Shown here piece after piece: positions 42,375 to 55,544 of a DNA stretch of 64,000 nt. Every line of letters starts with the position of its first letter. Position 1 is the first letter of the stretch. This DNA is from Dongia mobilis. Its GTDB lineage: Bacteria > Pseudomonadota > Alphaproteobacteria > Dongiales > Dongiaceae. The DNA lies in contig NZ_SNYW01000002.1 in assembly GCF_004363235.1 (NCBI RefSeq), forward strand, positions 1-64,000, written 5' to 3'. The notes under the pieces were generated by a model. That model was not told where the DNA came from, ran no database searches, and saw only the letters and a list, made by a program, of their open reading frames with translations. The translations under genes and the position numbers were made by a program.

Positions 42375-42421
42375 ATAGGTTGGCGATCGCCCGCGCCCAA
42401 ACGGAATCGGACCCTGCCCGC

Positions 42422-43204
42422 ATGCGCCTTGCCCTCTACCAGAACGACAGCAAACCGAGCGATGTCGCCCACCAGCTGGCATCGCTGCGCCGCGTCGCCC
42501 GCGACCTCCGGGGCGAGGCCGATCTGCTGGTGACGCCCGAGCTCTTTGCCAGCGGCTATCGCCTGCCGCCGGCCGAACTGCAGCGCCTTGCCGAGCCGGC
42601 GGCGGGGCCTTTCGTTGGCGCCCTTGCCGACATCGCGCGCGAGGCCGGTCTTGCCATCCTGTGCGGCTTTCCCGAGCGCGATGGCGCGCTGGTCTTCAAC
42701 AGCGCCATCGCCATCGGCCGCGACGGCGCGACCCTCGCCCTCTATCGCAAGCTGCACCTGCCGAGCGATGACGAGCGCGCCGCCTTTGCCGCGGGCGGGC
42801 GCATCGTTACCTTTGACCTGCTGGGATTCCACGTGGCGCCGCTGATCTGCTACGACATCGAATTTCCGGAAGCGGCGCGCGCCTGCGCGCGGGCCGGCGC
42901 CGAGCTCATCCTGGTGCCGACGGCGCTCCGCCGCCACTGGCACGAGATCGCCCGCCAGGTCATCCCCGTCCGCGCCCGCGAGAGCGGCGCCTTCCTCGCC
43001 TATTGCAATTTCGCCGGCAGCGAGAGCGACTGGGATTACGCCGGCCTCTCCTCGATCTGCGGGCCCGATGGCGCTGTGCTCGCGCTGGCGGGCGAGGCCG
43101 AAGGCGTCATCGTCGCCACGCTCAACCACGGCGCGGTGGCTGCGGCCCGGGCGCGCCTGCCTTATCTGAGGGATTGCCGGTTCGGCGTGAGCGGGCCGGA
43201 CTGA
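42422..43204 (+). CDS. Carbon-nitrogen hydrolase (nitrilase superfamily)
   Basis: A 260-residue amidohydrolase. The catalytic Glu is in LLVTPELFASGY (about residue 42), the Lys in YRKLHLP (about residue 112) and the nucleophile Cys in PLICYDIEFPEAAR (about residue 144). Members hydrolyse amides or carbamoyl groups in the cytoplasm. The closest described groups are aliphatic or omega amidases and R-stereoselective amidases; the substrate here is open. ATG 42422 begins MRLALYQND, a usual family start. Confidence 0.9.
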   Translation: MRLALYQNDSKPSDVAHQLASLRRVARDLRGEADLLVTPELFASGYRLPPAELQRLAEPAAGPFVGALADIAREAGLAILCGFPERDGALVFNSAIAIGRDGATLALYRKLHLPSDDERAAFAAGGRIVTFDLLGFHVAPLICYDIEFPEAARACARAGAELILVPTALRRHWHEIARQVIPVRARESGAFLAYCNFAGSESDWDYAGLSSICGPDGAVLALAGEAEGVIVATLNHGAVAAARARLPYLRDCRFGVSGPD

Positions 43205-43220
43205 AAACCGGCACCGCCGC

Positions 43221-46200
43221 TCAATTCGCCGGGTGGCGCCCGAGACTCTTCGCCATGACGAGATAGAGCTTGCCGACATCGGCGGTGATGAGGGCGGCAT
43301 TCAACACCGCCTCGGGATCGGCCTTGGCGGATTGCGTCAGCAGATCTTCGAACTTCCGCAGGTAGCGGTCGACCAGATCCTTGAAGCGCTCGTCGCGGCC
43401 ATAGCGCTGCTCGATCGCGGGAACGATGTACGAATCCTTCCCCTTGAACAGGCGCCGCGCGAAGATCGAGCGGTCGCCGTCGCGATAGCGCTTCCACACA
43501 TCCTCCGGCACTTCGCTGTCGAGCAGGTTCTGGATGTCGATGGCGAGGCCGTTCAGCTCCTCGATCATCACCGAAGCCGCGCGCAGGAAGGCGTCGCGGG
43601 TCGAGCTGTTCTGGGTATCGCGCAGCTTGTCGATGCGCTCGAGCGCCAGCTGCGAGGTCTTGGCAAGCTCCAGGCTCTGGCCCTTGAACGCATCGCCCAG
43701 TTCCACCGCCTTGGCCTGGGCCTGGTCGAGGGCGCGGCCGAAGCCTTCCGCCTGACGCTCGAAGCTCTGCCCGATGGTGGCGACGCGGGCGGCGGCGTTC
43801 TCGGCGGCGCGGCTCATTCCCTCGATGCGCTTGTCGATATCACTGCCGAGGCCGGCCAGGTGCTGGTTCATCCTGGCCGCCGCCTGGGCCAGCGCCTCGA
43901 CCTGGCGGTTCAGGATCTCGCTGGCCTGCTGCGCCTCGCCGCGCGCACCCTCGGCGCTGGCCTTGGCGGCAAGCGTCGCATCGTTGAATTCCTGCGCCTG
44001 GGCGCGCAATTGCTGGCGTACCTCCTCGGCCACGTCGCGTACCCGGCCGGAGAGGTCGGAAAGCTCGGTCACCTGCTCGGCCACCGCCGCCTTGATGCCG
44101 CCGACATCCTGCGTCGCCTTCCGCGTGACCTGCGCGAGCGCCTCGGCGGTGGCGCGGATCAGCTCGATCGATTCCTTCACCTGGCGGCTGCCCTCGCCGG
44201 TGGTGCTGCGCAGGGTCTCGGCCAGGGTCTGCGCCGAGATGTTGAGGGTGGAGAGCTGGTTCTGCCCTTCCTTGCCGATCGCCGCCACCTGTTCGATGCG
44301 CTGGCCCAGCGTCACGTTGAGCTGCTGCTGGCGCGACACCGCCTGGTCGGCGATGGTGGCGAGGATCTCGGCCTGGGCGCCCAGCGCCTTGCCCATCTGG
44401 TCGAGCTTGTCGCGCGCCATATCGGAGGCGTCCGCCAATTGTCTGGCATGGGCCTCGTAGAGGCTGGTGAGCTCGCTGGTGCGCCGCCCGCCCTCGTCCG
44501 CCGCCGCCTTGAGTAGCTGGTCCTGGCGCGTCACCTCGGCTGCTAGTCCGCCGGCCTTCTCGATGGCGCGGGCGGCCAGTTCCTCCATGGCGAGGAAGCC
44601 GGCGCGCAACTGTTCCTGCAGCTGGCCGGCAGCACCCGTCGCCTTGGCCGCCGCCCCTTCGAGACTTTCCGCCTCGCCATGCAGGATGGTGCCGATCAGC
44701 TTTGCCTCGATCTCGATCTTCTGCGTCGCCTCGGACAATTCGCCGATGCGCGCCTGCAGGCTGTCCCTTACCTCGTCGGTGGCGCCGCGTGTGCGGGCCA
44801 GGGCCGCAGCGAGCTCGTCATTCTGGCGCATGAGGTTCTCGCCCAGCGCGATCGCCGCCGCCCCCGCCTCCTCGGTCGCGGCCTTCAGGTTGGCGGCGTT
44901 GCGCTGCACGATGGATTGCAGCGCATCGGCGAGATCGCCCGCCTGGCGCTGCATCACGCGGCCGGCTTCCTGGGCGCGGTCGCTGATGTCGAGGCCGGCG
45001 CTCCTGGCGAGATCGGCCTGTTGCGCCAGCGCGTCGCGCATGGCCAGCGCCACATCGGTCGCCTGTTCCGCCGCCTTGCCGAGCGTCACCGCCTGGTCGG
45101 CGGCATTGGCATGCAGCTTCTCGCTGAGGCTCGCGAGATCGGCGAGGCGCCGCTCCAGGTCGAGCTGCTGCTCGGCGAGGCGCGTGCGCAGGGTATCGGC
45201 GCTCTTCTCGCCGGCCAGCGCCAGCGCCTGGGTCTGCTCGCCGGTCAGTTGGGCAAAGCGGGTGGTGGAATCGACGATCATGGCAGCAAGGTTCTCGGCC
45301 TGGACCCGGGCTGCCGCACCCAGACCCTCGGTCTGCTGCACGGCAGTTGCCGCCGCCGCCGCGATCTCCTGCGCCTGCAGGCGGAGCGCCCCGGCGAAAT
45401 GCTCGGCGGCATCGCGCGAGGCTTCGATCAGCTCGTCGCGCTGGCGCTCGGTGACGCCTTCCAGCGCCGCCGTCCGCGTCGCCACCATTTCCGCAGCCGC
45501 CAGGAATTCGTCGGCCTGGCGGCGGAGGATATCGCGGAAACCTTCCGCCGCCGCCTGCGCGGCCTCGATCAACTGGTCGCGATGGCTGAGGATGGTGCCG
45601 TCCAGCGCCGTGGTGCGGTTGATAAAGGTCTGGGTCAGTTCCTCCATGTTCGACATCTGGCGGTCGATCTCGCCCTTGAGATTGGTGACATGCGTATCGA
45701 GTTCGGCGCGGATCTCGCCAGCCGCCTGATGACCGATCTCGGCAAGGCGCCCGCGCTGGTCGCGGATGGTGTCGTCGAGCACCCGCGTCTTCGCCACCAC
45801 GGCATCCATGTTGTCGACGAGGGCGCTTTCGTTCTCGCGCAGGCGCTGCGCCAGGCGCTCGGCAGCGCGGTCGGCGGCCTGTTCCAGCACATGGCCCTGC
45901 TGGTCGATGGTCGTGCCGAGGCGACGGCTGGCATTGTCCTGGGCATCGGCCAGGGTGTCGAGGCGATCCTCCTGGCGTTTCAGCAGCTCGCCGAAATGGG
46001 CGGCATGGGCCTCGGCCGCCTCGTCGAGATGGCGGCTGGCGGCGGCCAGCGCCTGCAGGCTGGTGGTCTGGCGCACCTCGCCCAGGGCGTTCAGCTCCTC
46101 GAGCTTGAGGATCTCGGCATCGATCTCTTCGCGGAGGCGAATGGCGGCGGCATTGGCCGCTTCCGACAGGCGCCCGCGCTGGCCCTCGACGAGGGCGACC

Positions 46201-48227
46201 AGCCGCGCCGTCTCGGCATCGGTATGGCCGGCGGTGGTCTGGATGTCCTTGACCATCTCGCCGAATCGCTGCGCGATATGCTCGCCGAGGCGCGCGGTGG
46301 TTTCCTGGAAATTGGTCGCCTCGGTGCGGAGCGCGCTCTTCGCTGCCTGGTTCTGCTCGGTGATCTTGTCGATGAGCGCCCTGACCAGCGCGCCGCTTTC
46401 GCCGGCCATGTGGTCGAGGGCGTGGCGGAACTGGGTCGAGGCCATGAGGGCGGCATTGGTCAGGCGCTCGGCCTGGTGGCGCGCGGTCTCCTCCAGCGCC
46501 GCATTGTCCTTGCCGGCCTGCGCCGCCGCCTCGCCGATCACCTCGCCGACCCGCGCCAGCGAGGCGGTGAACTCGCCCGAGAGGACGTTGGCGGCGGCGA
46601 TGGCGCGGTCGCCCTCCTCGCGCATCTGGCGCTGGATCTCGGCGGTCCGGCGCATCACCTCGCCGACCGTCGCGGTGGCCGTGGCCGAGACCAGCTCGTG
46701 ATGGCGGCGCAGCGTGCCGGCGAAGCGCTCGGCGCTGGCATCGGCCTGCTCGTGCATCTCGCGGGCCTGGCGCTCGAGGGCGGTCAGCACCGCCTGCATG
46801 CGCGCCTCGCTGGCGGACGCGACCTCGTCGAGGCGCGCCTGCTCGGCCGTCGCCTGGTTTGCCAACTGTGTTGCCGCATTGGCCGTGGCGGCGGCAAAAG
46901 CGGCCTGCTGCTCGGCCAGTTTCTCGCCCAATTCGCGATAGCGCTGGGCGGCGCGTTCCTCGGCCGCCTGGATGCCGGCGACCTCGCCAGCGATTTCGCT
47001 GTGCATCACGGCGAAGGCATCGGTGGTGCGCTGGGCAAGGCGCGCCGCCTGGGCGGCCAGAGCCGCCTGCAATTCCTCGCCGGCATCGACGGCCTGGGTC
47101 TTGGCGGCATTGATGCTCTGCAGCTGGCGCGCCAGCTGCTCGGTCATCGCGGTGGCATGGCGCTGCGCCGCCTCGGCCGCCTCCTCGGTGGCGCGGCGCA
47201 GGCTCTCGGCATGGGCCGCGGCACCGCGCTCGCCGGCGGCGGTGGCGGCGGCAATGTCGGCGCCGATGCGGTCGAGCTGCGCCTCGATGGCGGCACTGGC
47301 GCGGCCGGTGATCTCGTCGATGGCGGCCAGCTGCCGGTCGCCCGCCTCGCCCAGGATGCGGGCATCGCGCCGCGCCGCTTCGCCGGCCTCGTCGATGCGG
47401 CGCATCACCTGCAGCATCTCGTTGCGCAGGCCGAGCGCCGCCTTGTCCACCGTCTCGGCCGAGATTTCGGCCTGGCGTTCGACCGCGTCGCGGAGATCGG
47501 CGGCATGGTCGACGATGCGCTCGAGGATGGCGGCGATTTCCCCGCGCTTGGCCTCGAAGGCGGCGACGACGCGGTCGGCCGATGTAGTGGCAATCCGGTC
47601 GAGCGCCTCGCTCTCGGCCGCACTCGCCTTGGCCAGCATCGCCTCCTGCTCGCCCAGCGCCTGCTGCATCGCGGCCAGCATCTGGCGCTGTGCCTTCAGC
47701 TGTTCGTCGATCGAATCCGATTGCGCGCGGGCAGCACCCGCCGCCTCCATCAGGTCGATGCGCTGGCGGCGGAAGCGTTCCTCGATCTCGGCCAGGGCGC
47801 CGGCCGCCTCTTCCGAGGCGCCGCGCAGTTCGACGGTCTGGCGGCGGATCGCCTCGGCGATGGTGGCGACGCGGGTCTCGGCCTGCGGATTGGGATAGGT
47901 GAGGAGATTGAGCTGCTGGCCGAGGAGGGCCGTCTGCCGCTCCAGATCGCGGCCGCGCGCAATATAGGCGATCACGATCCAGGCAAAGGCGGCGGGCGCC
48001 ACGAAGGTGATGATGATGGCGGCCAGTTCCGCCGGCAGCAGGTCGCGCAGATTCTCGAAGCCGACCGAATCCGAGATGTGCCAGCCATAGATGCCGACCC
48101 AGCCCAAGGTGATGAGGCTGCCCAGCAGGGTCGCCCATCTGTGGTAGCGGGCGTTGAGATCCTGCTGATTGACCAGCGGACGCGCCGGTGCCTTGCCCGG
48201 CTCTCCCTTGCCGTCCCCCTTGCCCAT
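43221..48227 (-). CDS. Giant membrane-anchored coiled-coil protein of unknown function
   Basis: A 1668-residue protein. Two hydrophobic segments near the N-terminus (about residues 31-51 and 65-90) are followed by about 1450 residues of Ala/Glu/Gln/Arg-rich helix without prolines or breaks, clearly coiled coil. A compact non-repetitive C-terminal domain of about 120 residues follows, beginning near STRDAFLRAASVMIEEL and containing EVPEDVWKRYRDGD. No Cys occurs, and Trp occurs only near both ends. Residues 773-1018 contain a repeat with 47-residue period. The layout recalls polarity or scaffold proteins such as TipN of Caulobacter and the signalling helices of chemoreceptors, but no catalytic or MCP hairpin motif is seen. 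Start ATG 48227 is preferred to GTG 48239. It converges on the nitrilase gene. Confidence 0.85.
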   Translation of the reverse strand: MGKGDGKGEPGKAPARPLVNQQDLNARYHRWATLLGSLITLGWVGIYGWHISDSVGFENLRDLLPAELAAIIITFVAPAAFAWIVIAYIARGRDLERQTALLGQQLNLLTYPNPQAETRVATIAEAIRRQTVELRGASEEAAGALAEIEERFRRQRIDLMEAAGAARAQSDSIDEQLKAQRQMLAAMQQALGEQEAMLAKASAAESEALDRIATTSADRVVAAFEAKRGEIAAILERIVDHAADLRDAVERQAEISAETVDKAALGLRNEMLQVMRRIDEAGEAARRDARILGEAGDRQLAAIDEITGRASAAIEAQLDRIGADIAAATAAGERGAAAHAESLRRATEEAAEAAQRHATAMTEQLARQLQSINAAKTQAVDAGEELQAALAAQAARLAQRTTDAFAVMHSEIAGEVAGIQAAEERAAQRYRELGEKLAEQQAAFAAATANAATQLANQATAEQARLDEVASASEARMQAVLTALERQAREMHEQADASAERFAGTLRRHHELVSATATATVGEVMRRTAEIQRQMREEGDRAIAAANVLSGEFTASLARVGEVIGEAAAQAGKDNAALEETARHQAERLTNAALMASTQFRHALDHMAGESGALVRALIDKITEQNQAAKSALRTEATNFQETTARLGEHIAQRFGEMVKDIQTTAGHTDAETARLVALVEGQRGRLSEAANAAAIRLREEIDAEILKLEELNALGEVRQTTSLQALAAASRHLDEAAEAHAAHFGELLKRQEDRLDTLADAQDNASRRLGTTIDQQGHVLEQAADRAAERLAQRLRENESALVDNMDAVVAKTRVLDDTIRDQRGRLAEIGHQAAGEIRAELDTHVTNLKGEIDRQMSNMEELTQTFINRTTALDGTILSHRDQLIEAAQAAAEGFRDILRRQADEFLAAAEMVATRTAALEGVTERQRDELIEASRDAAEHFAGALRLQAQEIAAAAATAVQQTEGLGAAARVQAENLAAMIVDSTTRFAQLTGEQTQALALAGEKSADTLRTRLAEQQLDLERRLADLASLSEKLHANAADQAVTLGKAAEQATDVALAMRDALAQQADLARSAGLDISDRAQEAGRVMQRQAGDLADALQSIVQRNAANLKAATEEAGAAAIALGENLMRQNDELAAALARTRGATDEVRDSLQARIGELSEATQKIEIEAKLIGTILHGEAESLEGAAAKATGAAGQLQEQLRAGFLAMEELAARAIEKAGGLAAEVTRQDQLLKAAADEGGRRTSELTSLYEAHARQLADASDMARDKLDQMGKALGAQAEILATIADQAVSRQQQLNVTLGQRIEQVAAIGKEGQNQLSTLNISAQTLAETLRSTTGEGSRQVKESIELIRATAEALAQVTRKATQDVGGIKAAVAEQVTELSDLSGRVRDVAEEVRQQLRAQAQEFNDATLAAKASAEGARGEAQQASEILNRQVEALAQAAARMNQHLAGLGSDIDKRIEGMSRAAENAAARVATIGQSFERQAEGFGRALDQAQAKAVELGDAFKGQSLELAKTSQLALERIDKLRDTQNSSTRDAFLRAASVMIEELNGLAIDIQNLLDSEVPEDVWKRYRDGDRSIFARRLFKGKDSYIVPAIEQRYGRDERFKDLVDRYLRKFEDLLTQSAKADPEAVLNAALITADVGKLYLVMAKSLGRHPAN

Positions 48228-48360: not shown

Positions 48361-48900
48361 TTATCTGGCGCCGCGCTCGCCGCGGCCCAGATCCGACCTG
48401 CCCTGGCCATAGGTCCAGGGCTGGACGCCGTCGCGCGTCACATACCAGGGCGGCCCTGCCTCAGGCCCGCGACGATCCTGGCCCCGATGTTGCCAGTCGT
48501 TTTTTTGCCAGCCTTGCTGCCAGCCGTGGTTCAAGCCATGCCCCCATGGCCGGTTGTCCTGCCACCAGTCGCTGTGCAGCGAACCCCGATTCCACGACCG
48601 ACGGTCCCGCCAGCCGTCGTGGCGATTGAGGTATTCGGTGAGATAGGCCTGGTACTCGTTGCGGCTGAGGCGCTTCTTCGGCACGCCCTGCAGCCGGTCA
48701 TAGCCATGGTCCCGGGCAAAATCCCATTCCTGGGCGCTGATCCTGCCGTCGCGGTTGCGATCGACCAGGAACCAGGTCTGGCGCTTGTTGTAGATCGCGT
48801 TGTCGTGGCCGGCCGCGGCCGGTTGGGCCAGTGCGGCGGTGCTGCCCAGCAGCATGGCAAGGGCGAGGGACAAGCGGCAAAGCCGGGTTGTGATCGGCAT
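48361..48900 (-). CDS. Secreted EF-hand protein
   Basis: A 179-residue protein with a Sec signal peptide (MPITTRLCRLSLALAMLLGS, cleavage near ALAQ). A single canonical EF-hand loop DRNRDGRISAQEW (about residues 47-59) is present; the paired second hand is degenerate (KKRLSRNEYQAYL). The C-terminal 90 residues are Trp/Arg/Gly/Gln/His-rich low-complexity sequence. Probably a periplasmic or surface calcium-binding protein. It lies upstream of the giant coiled-coil gene on the same strand, about 130 bp apart. Confidence 0.75.
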   Translation of the reverse strand: MPITTRLCRLSLALAMLLGSTAALAQPAAAGHDNAIYNKRQTWFLVDRNRDGRISAQEWDFARDHGYDRLQGVPKKRLSRNEYQAYLTEYLNRHDGWRDRRSWNRGSLHSDWWQDNRPWGHGLNHGWQQGWQKNDWQHRGQDRRGPEAGPPWYVTRDGVQPWTYGQGRSDLGRGERGAR

Positions 48901-49047: not shown

Positions 49048-51201
<2,154 letters not shown>

Positions 51202-51312
51202 GACACCTTCCTCCAGCCGCTCGATTCTTGTGATGCCGCAGTGCAGCATTTTCCACAAGCTAGCAGAGGATTTGGGGCCAAGTCCAGTCGGGTGCCCCCT
51301 TCGCAACCCGGC

Positions 51313-53699: not shown

Positions 53700-55544
53700 T
53701 CAGGCCACGGCAAGGCGCAGGAAATCCGTGGCCTGGTCGAAGCCCTTGAGAAGGGCGCGGTCAGCGATCAGCTTTTCCGTCGCCCGATAGGGCGCCAGCA
53801 GCGGCGCCACGGCGGGGTCCTCGGCGATCTCGCGCGAGAGCACGATCTCGCCCCCCGCACTCTGGCCCTGCAGGCGCGCCGCCAGATTGACGGTCGAGCC
53901 GAAATAGTCGAGCCGGTCGTTGAGCGTCACCACGATGCTGGGGCCCTGGTGCAGGCCGAGCTTGATGGCGATCGCCCCGCTGGCTGGTTCCCGGCTGGCG
54001 GCTTCAAGATGGGACTGGTTCCAGCTACCGATGCGCCGCTGCATGTCGAGCGCGGCGGCAAGGCCATCCTGCGGCCGGGCGAAGGCCGCCATCACCGCAT
54101 CGCCGATGGTCTTGACGATGGCGCCGTCATGCGCGCGCACGATCTCAGCCATGAAGGCAAAATGTTCGCGCACCAGGTGATAGGCGGCGGCATCACCGAT
54201 GCGTTCATAGAGTGCCGTCGAGGCCTGCAGGTCGGAGAACAGCAGGGTGACACGGCCGATCGCCACCTCGTCGCCGGGGCGCAGCACGTCCTCGGAAAAG
54301 AGATCGCGGAAGGCCTGCAGCGCGGTGACTCGGTCGGCGGTGAGGCAATCGGCGACCCAGTGGCGGCTTTCGATCACGGCGATGCGCGGCCTGGCTGAAT
54401 CATTGACGAAGTCGAGCTGGCCGGAGGCGCCCGGTGCGCCGGCGCTTATGTCGTCGGCTGCGATCACCAGGGTTGGAAAGGCAGCGCCATCATGGTCGAT
54501 GTCGCATTGCCCGCCCGGTTCCAGCGTGCGCAGGCGATAGGGCCCGGGCGGCAGGTGTCCCGGCAGGCTGCGGCGCGCACCCGGGGCGAGATGGATCTGC
54601 GCCATCACATGCGGCACCGACATCGGCCCCCACAGGCAATACTCGCCCGAGACGATTTCGCGGATCGCCGGGGCGGGTCGGAAGCTGGCCTCGACATTCT
54701 TCGCGAAATCGCGGTCATAGGCGATGTTGCAGGAGGGGCAATGCGCGCCGCTGGGCAACTGGTCGAGCCCGCCCGCCCAGGCCTTGGCAACGCGGCAGCG
54801 CGGGCAGAGCAAATCCCAGCGCAGATCCAGAAGACCCGCCTTTACCGCCTGCAGGCAAAGCTCGATGGCGTGGCGCGCAGGTACCGCCCAGTCCCGCGCC
54901 AGCGCCAGCGGCCGCACATGCCAGAGATCCACCTCCTGCGCGTTCATCAGGTGATCGGCCAGGCGCCGGGCAAGGCCGTGGCCATGGGGCGTCGCCTCGA
55001 TGGCCGCCACCGCGCGGGCCGCCAGGGCCAAGGCGCCCGCGGTCGGGCTGGGGGCGTCATAGCTGAAGGGCGTCGCTCGCTCACCGCCGGCGAAGGCATC
55101 GGCTTCCTGCGCGAGGCGGGCGAAGGTCCGGCCCGAGGCGTCGAAGAACCGGGTGGCGAGAATGAGCCGCCCCAGAAAATTGCGGGGTGCCGCCGCGAGG
55201 GTATAGGTGCCGCGCGATCCGCCGCTGGCGGGATCGGGGGCTAGGTCGAAACGCGCGCTGAGCTGCGCGATCGGCCCGCTCGAGAAATCGCGCACATGCT
55301 CGAAGAACTGGCCGGTCACCCAGTTGACCGGCCGCTCCTGCCATTTCAGCCGGAAGGGTCCCATGCGGGCCGCGGCGAAATAGGCGACGGCGCCGTCGGG
55401 GCCTGGAATCTCGGTGATCTGCTGGCGCGGCAGGCCGGCCGCCTCGTTGAAGCGCGCCGTATCGGCGACCAGCGGCCAGATCGCCTCGGGCGGATGGTCG
55501 AAGCGCCATTGCCAGGTTTTGGATTTCAGGCCCTGCATCACCAC
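53700..55544 (-). CDS. DUF5939-type adenylate/guanylate cyclase with SRPBCC-like N-terminus
   Basis: A 614-residue multidomain protein. Residues 1-145 look like an SRPBCC/START-type fold (WRFDHPPEAIWPLVADTARF). The DUF5939 middle region follows with a zinc-ribbon pattern, CPRCRVAKAWAG and HCPSCNIAYD (about residues 246-280). The C-terminal class III cyclase domain has metal Asp in LFSDLQASTALYERIG and TIGDAVMAAF. The Lys in IVKTIGD and the Asp in RLDYFGSTVNLAARL suggest ATP use. No membrane segment. The combination suggests a ligand-sensing soluble cyclase. Confidence 0.87.
   Translation of the reverse strand: MVMQGLKSKTWQWRFDHPPEAIWPLVADTARFNEAAGLPRQQITEIPGPDGAVAYFAAARMGPFRLKWQERPVNWVTGQFFEHVRDFSSGPIAQLSARFDLAPDPASGGSRGTYTLAAAPRNFLGRLILATRFFDASGRTFARLAQEADAFAGGERATPFSYDAPSPTAGALALAARAVAAIEATPHGHGLARRLADHLMNAQEVDLWHVRPLALARDWAVPARHAIELCLQAVKAGLLDLRWDLLCPRCRVAKAWAGGLDQLPSGAHCPSCNIAYDRDFAKNVEASFRPAPAIREIVSGEYCLWGPMSVPHVMAQIHLAPGARRSLPGHLPPGPYRLRTLEPGGQCDIDHDGAAFPTLVIAADDISAGAPGASGQLDFVNDSARPRIAVIESRHWVADCLTADRVTALQAFRDLFSEDVLRPGDEVAIGRVTLLFSDLQASTALYERIGDAAAYHLVREHFAFMAEIVRAHDGAIVKTIGDAVMAAFARPQDGLAAALDMQRRIGSWNQSHLEAASREPASGAIAIKLGLHQGPSIVVTLNDRLDYFGSTVNLAARLQGQSAGGEIVLSREIAEDPAVAPLLAPYRATEKLIADRALLKGFDQATDFLRLAVA

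Follow-up and report, generated by a model that had tools for sequence, protein, structure and literature searches.

A membrane-tethered coiled-coil rod protein of Dongia mobilis, a likely relative of the polar proteins TipN and RgsE/GPR

What might a very long helical rod tethered to the membrane do in a bacterium? The question is raised by a gene of Dongia mobilis in the window (the whole 64,000-nucleotide stretch of DNA analyzed here; Table 1), whose product has a single match in its own genome. An earlier note, made from the DNA letters, described a cysteine-free, 1,668-residue coiled-coil protein with two hydrophobic N-terminal segments, tryptophan near both ends, a 47-residue repeat and a novel C-terminal domain, and suggested a TipN-like rod attached to the membrane. 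The composition agrees with this description: cysteine is absent, tryptophan is found solely at residues 31, 43, 49, 83, and 1578, and the stretch from residue 121 to 1545 has no proline, tryptophan, or cysteine and contains 22.5% alanine, 9.8% leucine, 10.5% glutamate, 8.2% glutamine, and 9.1% arginine. The layout is an N-terminal transmembrane hairpin, about 1,440 proline-free helical residues, and a compact C-terminal domain (CTD). The two hydrophobic segments, read from the sequence at residues 33–51 and 69–90, lie inside a conserved module. Scanning the 1,668-residue protein against Pfam and NCBIfam yields nothing above or near the curated cut-offs, and SMC, kinesin, or chemoreceptor domains are absent at E 0.1, which excludes an identity of this kind and is in line with the note, to which no SMC or chemoreceptor feature was visible.

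Table 1. Features of the rod-protein locus in the window.
Feature	Coordinates	Strand	Description
Rod-protein gene	43221..48227	-	Complete, ATG start, 1,668 aa (coding 48227-43224)
Conserved N-terminal module, residues 35-120	47868..48125	-	Predicted transmembrane hairpin (~33-51, 69-90) and juxtamembrane segment; iterated profile
Rod, residues 103-1540	43608..47921	-	Helical repeat, charge-free hydrophobic seam; period 3.618
Rod part A, residues 103-1180	44688..47921	-	Pitch 3.618 (47/13 = 3.615) with a local 47-residue repeat
47-residue repeat stretch, residues 773-1018	45174..45911	-	Self-match at offset 47
Rod part B, residues 1211-1540	43608..44597	-	Pitch 3.573 (25/7), as in most of the family
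C-terminal domain, residues ~1545-1668	43224..43595	-	Helical, not in Pfam; A1 alignment, hhalign, AF2
Small protein, one EF-hand-like stretch (below Pfam cut-off)	48361..48900	-	Upstream neighbor
Methylmalonyl-CoA mutase	49048..51306	-	Pfam PF01642 E 1e-239
Carbon-nitrogen hydrolase	42380..43204	+	Convergent neighbor, Pfam PF00795 E 1e-43

The CTD is conserved on its own, as seen in the A1 alignment, and the last 129 residues of the protein have matches in 25 of 41 relatives (own genome counted). The profile A1, built from 24 CTD rows, matches 153 of the 387 genomes of the class and leaves 234 unmatched; a profile search with residues 1545–1668 in alphaproteobacterial genomes is what the earlier note had proposed. 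Among 397 genomes drawn from the phylum, A1 matches 108, all of which belong to the same class or nearer. Most matched class genomes carry one copy and a few carry two or three, and one row (L073) has a CTD identical to that of Methylobacterium bullatum. In 40 proteins that were read out, the domain terminates no more than about 15 residues from the stop, and the listed CTD-bearing open frames are mostly ~330 to 2,872 aa long. As in TipN and GPR/RgsE, the CTD of the window protein is located at the extreme end of the chain. An orphan-protein reading is ruled out because the CTD family is found across the class. The domain is thus not peculiar to this protein, and its novelty stands in the sense that it is absent from Pfam, where the best match to any of the 24 members has an E of 0.0048. 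DUF7403 (PF24136) gives weak matches to 11 of the 24, the window member reaching 14.6 bits against a cut-off of 27. Sequence search of the PDB with the CTD profile yields no relative (best E 0.078). AF2 models have six helices both with the window row leading (pLDDT 69) and with an Ochrobactrum row leading (pLDDT 90, pTM 0.84); neither matches a PDB entry in Foldseek at E 0.001, and the best Z values of the VIA structural comparison (weaker model, 7.4; better model, 3.4) lie within helical-fold noise.

Two relatives connect the CTD to characterized proteins. In S. meliloti Ak57 (CP090106.1), tblastn with the window CTD finds a match with 36% identity and E 2e-19 in a CDS of 2,089 aa, annotated as "kinesin" without support here. 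The length of 2,089 aa equals the one published for RgsE, a homologue of GPR (PMC7327166), by which the CDS can be identified as RgsE; GPR is counted in the family because it is published as a homologue of RgsE. Comparison of A1 with the Rhizobiales CTD profile in hhalign gives a probability of 99.9 and E 1e-34 (a single comparison). In the CTD tree, the Rhizobiales rows and RgsE form a separate group of 17 rows (98/99) that does not include the window protein, which is grouped with four of its five congeners (99/91, in a tree of few columns and many open forks). The family of genome G231 was tried as the center of the Rhizobiaceae and rejected: 30 of 199 genomes have weak matches, in open reading frames of 314–625 aa, and the number of genera points to Rhodobacteraceae.

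The second relative is found in the Caulobacteraceae (family f57), which are marked by the solved Caulobacter MipZ at 66% identity; none of the other listed matches exceeds 52%. Two of the 75 searched genomes of the genus, G466 and G485, encode a MipZ that is 100% identical to the solved protein over 260 residues. At E 0.01, A1 finds one match each in 67 of 119 Caulobacteraceae genomes, covering 21 of 21 genera, with 52 of 119 unmatched. The protein of G466 has 882 aa if translation begins at the first ATG, the 19th codon of its open frame, and carries hydrophobic segments ahead of the coil. TipN is printed with a length of 882 aa (PMC13170164) and described with two N-terminal transmembrane segments and a coiled coil (PMC9178275). 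Genome, length, and layout suggest that the G466 protein is TipN; tblastn of this candidate against plasmids gives no match. The CTD of this TipN group aligns to A1 with a probability of 98.9 and E 1e-17 over 113 columns, and to the Rhizobiales CTD with a probability of 96.6 and E 7e-10, each in a single hhalign comparison with Caulobacteraceae rows that had been found with A1.

The N-terminal module leads to the same set of proteins. An iterated profile grown from window residues 20–125 alone, in which residues 35–120 form the conserved part, matches all 7 Caulobacteraceae, 70 of 80 named Rhizobiales (with some of the sequences truncated upstream), and 40 of the 43 other rows, the window and five Rhizobiales-type rows among these. 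A core profile built without Caulobacteraceae and Rhizobiales rows matches 44 of 85 Rhizobiales-type rows at E <1e-3 and 72 at E 10; RgsE is matched at 1.5e-6, and 4 of 7 Caulobacteraceae rows are reached at 5e-5 to 3e-3. At E 10, this core profile misses a Sphingomonas row and the three TipN rows, which are of C. vibrioides grade. The latter three are matched at 4e-6 to 7e-6 by a profile that lacks such rows, with other Caulobacteraceae rows as bridge, and the Sphingomonas row is missed by all three N-terminal profiles. Among 10,098 open reading frames, none from outside the family is matched by the N-terminal profiles at E 10. Hence, the hairpin and juxtamembrane segment of the TipN and GPR/RgsE family are found in the window protein, the TipN rows being connected via intermediates and the Sphingomonas row not being reached.

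These profile matches at both ends place the window protein, as judged from sequence, in an alphaproteobacterial family that contains TipN and RgsE/GPR. The TipN-like membrane-tethered rod that the earlier note had proposed is supported, and the homology of both ends to TipN and RgsE/GPR makes the likeness more than an analogy. In the literature, GPR was described in one sentence as "with similarity to" TipN (PMC8546619), and TipN was termed "analogous" to GPR (PMC13170164). The searched titles and abstracts do not name the common terminal domain or the series of helical pitches described below; the common CTD, its reach, and the pitch series are apparently new, although an earlier statement is possible. 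TipN and GPR have each been investigated on their own, in two different model bacteria. With a domain in common at either end of the chain and usually a single copy in a genome, pole choice would become open to direct testing.

Between the two ends, the protein has a long phase-coherent rod, as in TipN and GPR/RgsE. Over the whole rod, the period of 3.618 reaches a power of 48.8 (7.6 for the 95th percentile of 60 shuffle maxima) with a coherence of 0.67. Power is 67 for the rod minus its last 360 residues, with local lag-47 identity of up to 0.249 in part A, and 33 for part B, with lag-25 identity of 0.18–0.21. Segments of 240 residues starting at 241, 361, 721, and 841 have the top lag-47 identity (0.21–0.25), and in those starting at 1081 and 1201 lag 25 leads (0.21 and 0.18). 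The repeat was evaluated by mean BLOSUM62 scores against 200 within-22-residue shuffles and 200 shuffles that keep the helical phase. Lag 47 has a z of 9.2 and 8.3, respectively, and the best 47-residue self-match, which starts at residue 866, scores 96 against null maxima of 65 and 71; chance is excluded as the source of the repeat by these shuffles, and the repeat seen in the earlier note holds. Lag 25 is stronger (z 11.8 and 9.1), and a stricter class-keeping shuffle leaves lags 47, 25, and 36 at z 3.2, 3.4, and 3.3.

The identity lags of highest z are 25, 47, 36, 94, 11, 98, 69, 72, and 58. Units of 25, 36, 47, 58, and 69 residues correspond to 14 + 11k (two heptads plus k hendecads) and to 7, 10, 13, 16, and 19 turns; lag 94 is 2 × 47, lag 72 is 25 + 47, and lag 98 falls outside the series. 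This series explains the step of 58 residues that had been read as 47 + 11 with an inserted hendecad. Of the proposed anchors at residues 773, 820, 878, 925, and 972 (TID, TIR, TIL, VTE, and AAR), the pair 878/925 is clear by eye and the one at 972 is weak. From coiled-coil geometry, 25/7 would be slightly left-handed, 47/13 straight, and 11/3 right-handed, and a rise of 0.1485 nm per residue would give a rod length of up to ~210 nm. On a helical wheel, hydrophobic residues make up 67% of one 40-degree bin, 32–37% of its neighbors, and 5–18% elsewhere, and the center of this seam carries no charge; the seam of RgsE is narrow as well.

The members of the family differ in how these parts are combined. 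RgsE/GPR (2,089 aa; 2,115 aa in Agrobacterium) resembles the window protein in its hairpin module, giant proline-poor rod, and CTD. It differs by a proline-rich linker preceding the CTD, a divergent Hpt gene adjoining, and a rod of 1,651 instead of 1,438 residues in RgsE, with a pitch of 3.656 (3.632–3.666 in 16 RgsE/GPR-type rows; 11/3 = 3.667) compared to 3.618. The apolipoprotein A1/A4/E repeats of PF01442 share a long amphipathic helix and 11-residue content with the window rod. However, they exceed the curated cut-off in 3 of 3 named Rhizobiales proteins scanned and match no stretch of the window protein at E 0.1, where lags 25, 47, and 36 dominate and lag 11 is weaker. With no PF01442 match, another pitch, and another CTD group, the window protein is not a GPR orthologue proper. 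TipN is like the window protein in that hairpin module and CTD are homologous over their whole length, the coil is alanine-rich, and each matching genome has one match. In contrast, its rod has ~430 residues compared to ~1,440, a proline-rich tail of ~150 residues precedes the hairpin, and a proline-rich linker precedes the CTD, which is 22% identical to the window CTD in the profile alignment; the TipN pitch of ~3.594 is weakly defined (power 16).

The gene neighborhood varies across the family. Besides the genes in Table 1, formate dehydrogenase-like genes, whose plasmid matches are all below 80% identity, are located near the window rod gene, and no polarity or division genes are found beside it. 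Of 49 loci compared, 9 have the mutase cluster close to the rod gene, 8 of these upstream and on the same strand. In 65 of 123 loci, an Hpt gene adjoins the rod gene, mostly divergently (Rhizobiales, several other families, and a Sphingomonas replicon, with many Methylobacterium near-copies). The S. meliloti copy is above the Pfam Hpt cut-off and the Sphingomonas copy below it; when 16 of the 65 are aligned, the latter and its tree neighbor L070 lack the AHxLKG histidine. MlaD, MlaE, ABC, and auxiliary-lipoprotein genes lie downstream of the rod gene in 12–14 of 49 loci (14 for the MlaD cluster; the ABC cluster is wider), with one example per cluster confirmed by Pfam. Within the flanks compared, the Hpt and Mla groups include neither the window nor the seven Caulobacteraceae loci. 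Searched with an Hpt profile, the genome of the window yields only a weak match that contains a stop, and G001 yields no match. In G424, an Hpt relative is encoded ~13–15 kb away from the rod gene; G466 and G485 encode theirs at other genomic sites.

Taken with the described roles of its relatives, the rod gene is probably this lineage's member of the TipN/RgsE-GPR family and would most likely encode a membrane-tethered polar scaffold or landmark, its location being deduced from the homologues. TipN reaches the new pole via the septum or division site, binds ParA, and recruits TipF (PMC9178275). GPR has two transmembrane segments and ~1,700 residues of helix and forms a ring at the growth pole (PMC8262873), and Brucella abortus RgsE is located at the new pole (PMC9938171). 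By analogy, the hairpin would anchor the window protein in the inner membrane and leave its two ends cytoplasmic. Chains may associate via their narrow hydrophobic seams in an almost straight coiled coil whose far end carries the CTD, which might bind partners or other rods there. Brought from the division site, the rods would gather at the new or growing pole as a landmark that could hold chromosome-partition, flagellar, or envelope-growth proteins. The tip domain has neither a Pfam family nor a clear PDB match, though GPR fails without its C-terminal 221 residues: their deletion is reported to block complementation, and a tag placed at the C-terminus is reported to be harmful to GPR (PMC8262873). 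A deletion of 332 residues still allows paired foci to form and retains more function (PMC8262873), so that the tip is not needed for the GPR ring; the C-terminal region would thus matter in GPR, though not for ring formation. Counting against the polar-scaffold reading are that homologous ends can serve other sites, that the window gene has no polarity or division neighbors, that PF01442 is not matched, that the core N-terminal profile misses the TipN and Sphingomonas rows, and that genomes unmatched by A1 are found in the Caulobacteraceae (52/119) and the class (234/387).

Other roles may be weighed against the polar scaffold. Architecture and CTD as in RgsE/GPR and a similar rod length (1,438 and 1,651 residues) would also fit a growth-pole organizer in the strict GPR sense, i.e., a ring at one pole that directs zonal peptidoglycan and membrane synthesis. 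We regard this as unlikely: the own genome encodes MreB (E 6e-150), whereas MreBCD is reportedly absent from Rhizobiales (PMC8546619), which makes a TipN-like landmark role likelier than a GPR-like role in polar growth. Moreover, the pitch is 3.618 and not 3.66, and PF01442 is not matched. RgsE homologues are reported in Emcibacterales and Rhodospirillales, and Krol et al. describe the non-Rhizobiales orders with RgsE homologues as having no other Rgs homologues and raise a different role there (PMC7327166).

The PF01442 matches of Rhizobiales members and the Mla-type operon (MlaD, MlaE, ABC, and auxiliary lipoprotein) near the gene in Rhizobiales and three other families could instead indicate an amphipathic helix that lies along the inner membrane like an apolipoprotein and is coupled to phospholipid transport, with no free coiled coil. 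This seems improbable for the window protein, as the Mla clusters leave out the window and a narrow face with a charge-free center is more consistent with a paired coil than with a broad face for lipids; the seam of RgsE is narrow too. Since poles come from septa, a septal or nucleoid-anchoring rod might look like TipN, which itself passes through the division site (PMC9178275), and RgsE interacts with TolQ and RgsS (PMC7327166). Yet RgsE and GPR are reportedly absent from the septum (PMC7327166), and a division-site protein of this kind is very improbable.

The earlier note had also suggested that the rod measures distance. Open frames of 1,691–2,029 aa in its genus-mates (six genomes; a seventh is truncated by a contig end) and blocks of 272 and 51 residues that some members of the genus have and others lack argue against a fixed ruler, and this reading was set aside. 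Among 16 pairs of close relatives above 45% identity out of 55, five gap lengths were judged independent (323 = 272 + 51; 120 = 80 + 40), leaving out gaps of 1–10, one of 47, and two placements of 51 with flanks below 45% identity. At a pitch of 3.62, lengths of 272, 51, 225, 80, and 40 each deviate by 0.05–0.15 turn from an integral number of turns (for these five, the mean cosine is 0.76, with p 0.006 if phases were uniform).

Across the family, pitch forms a series. With class cuts of our own choice, 99 rods were classed on the CTD tree (101 rows, two without a value; the rod of L256 is too short): 61 have a pitch <3.603 (mostly 3.55–3.59; 25/7 = 3.571), 23 a pitch of 3.61–3.635, and 15 a pitch ≥3.64 (11/3). 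The classes cluster on the tree, with 10 changes compared to a shuffled mean of 34.5, a difference inflated by near-copies. Whole-rod coherence is 0.50–1.04, with ~1.0 in many 25/7 rods of up to ~1,400 residues (L283). The last 330 residues are distinct: in 10 of 10 examined members of the window's family they peak at 3.567–3.576 and the remainder at 3.618–3.627. In RgsE they are likewise nearer to 25/7, and RgsE and eight RgsE/GPR-type rows have peaks of 3.594–3.630 compared to 3.645–3.666; L212 has 3.600 compared to 3.633.

A tentative account of this series is one ancestral alphaproteobacterial polar rod, with hairpin, 25-residue-repeat coil, and helical tip, of which TipN and GPR might be divergent outcomes. 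The seam would have been kept while length, in near-whole-turn blocks, and pitch, by hendecads added to 7 + 7 (25, 36, 47, 58, and pure 11), were retuned independently, taking the coil from slightly left-handed through straight to right-handed. The 330 residues next to the tip would keep the old 25/7 pitch here, and the rod would be a mechanical component under selection for its twist. Nature offers in this series very long coiled coils with similar ends and different twists, in which one could ask if a bacterial scaffold is sensitive to the handedness of its supercoil. Of 14 proteins in the window's family, 12 have a lag-47 identity enrichment of 1.41–1.69; genus g5 accounts for the other two, with 1.11 and 1.24. 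Outside the family, enrichment is at most 1.38, except for L212 at 1.58, and a 58-residue repeat is found in L273, L212, and L268 (enrichment 2.19–2.56).

The GPR/RgsE-type genes of the rod family, to which the membrane-anchored coiled-coil protein of the window belongs, are adjoined by a small Hpt phosphotransfer gene, mostly in divergent orientation, at the Sinorhizobium meliloti locus that carries RgsE (L296) and at 64 other loci, with hosts in the Rhizobiales and several other families. This suggests that the Hpt protein is a candidate phosphorelay partner of the rod protein. The phosphate-accepting histidine is lost in the Hpt copies of Sphingomonas (L297) and of L070, its neighbor in the tree. 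A public record annotates S. meliloti RgsE as 'kinesin', and the 3.7 Mb replicon bearing it is labeled plasmid pSymB, yet contains housekeeping genes (folP, petA); both the annotation and the plasmid label look wrong.

Two further kinds of gene recur at rod-gene loci: Mce-type phospholipid transport genes, next to the rod gene on its downstream side, and methylmalonyl-CoA mutase, which is found near the rod gene at eight loci besides the window, from several families. An adenylate/guanylate cyclase with DUF5939 is also encoded in the window.

Coordinates and loci of rod-gene neighbors and other features
Feature	Location	Strand	Position relative to rod gene
Small Hpt phosphotransfer gene	L296:2087-2455	minus	adjoining
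RgsE gene	L296:3073-9342		
Methylmalonyl-CoA mutase gene	window 49048-51306		upstream
MlaD/MlaE/ABC ATPase/auxiliary-lipoprotein genes	L066, L071, L073-L076, L129, L137, L138, L187, L199, L205, L211, L216		downstream
Cyclase gene	window 53700-55544		

In the genus-rich family of genome G231, proteins weakly matching the rod-family C-terminal domain occur in 30 of 199 genomes (loci L218-L247). Most comprise 314-460 residues, with single proteins of 535 and 625, and these short proteins are perhaps a reduced branch of the rod family.
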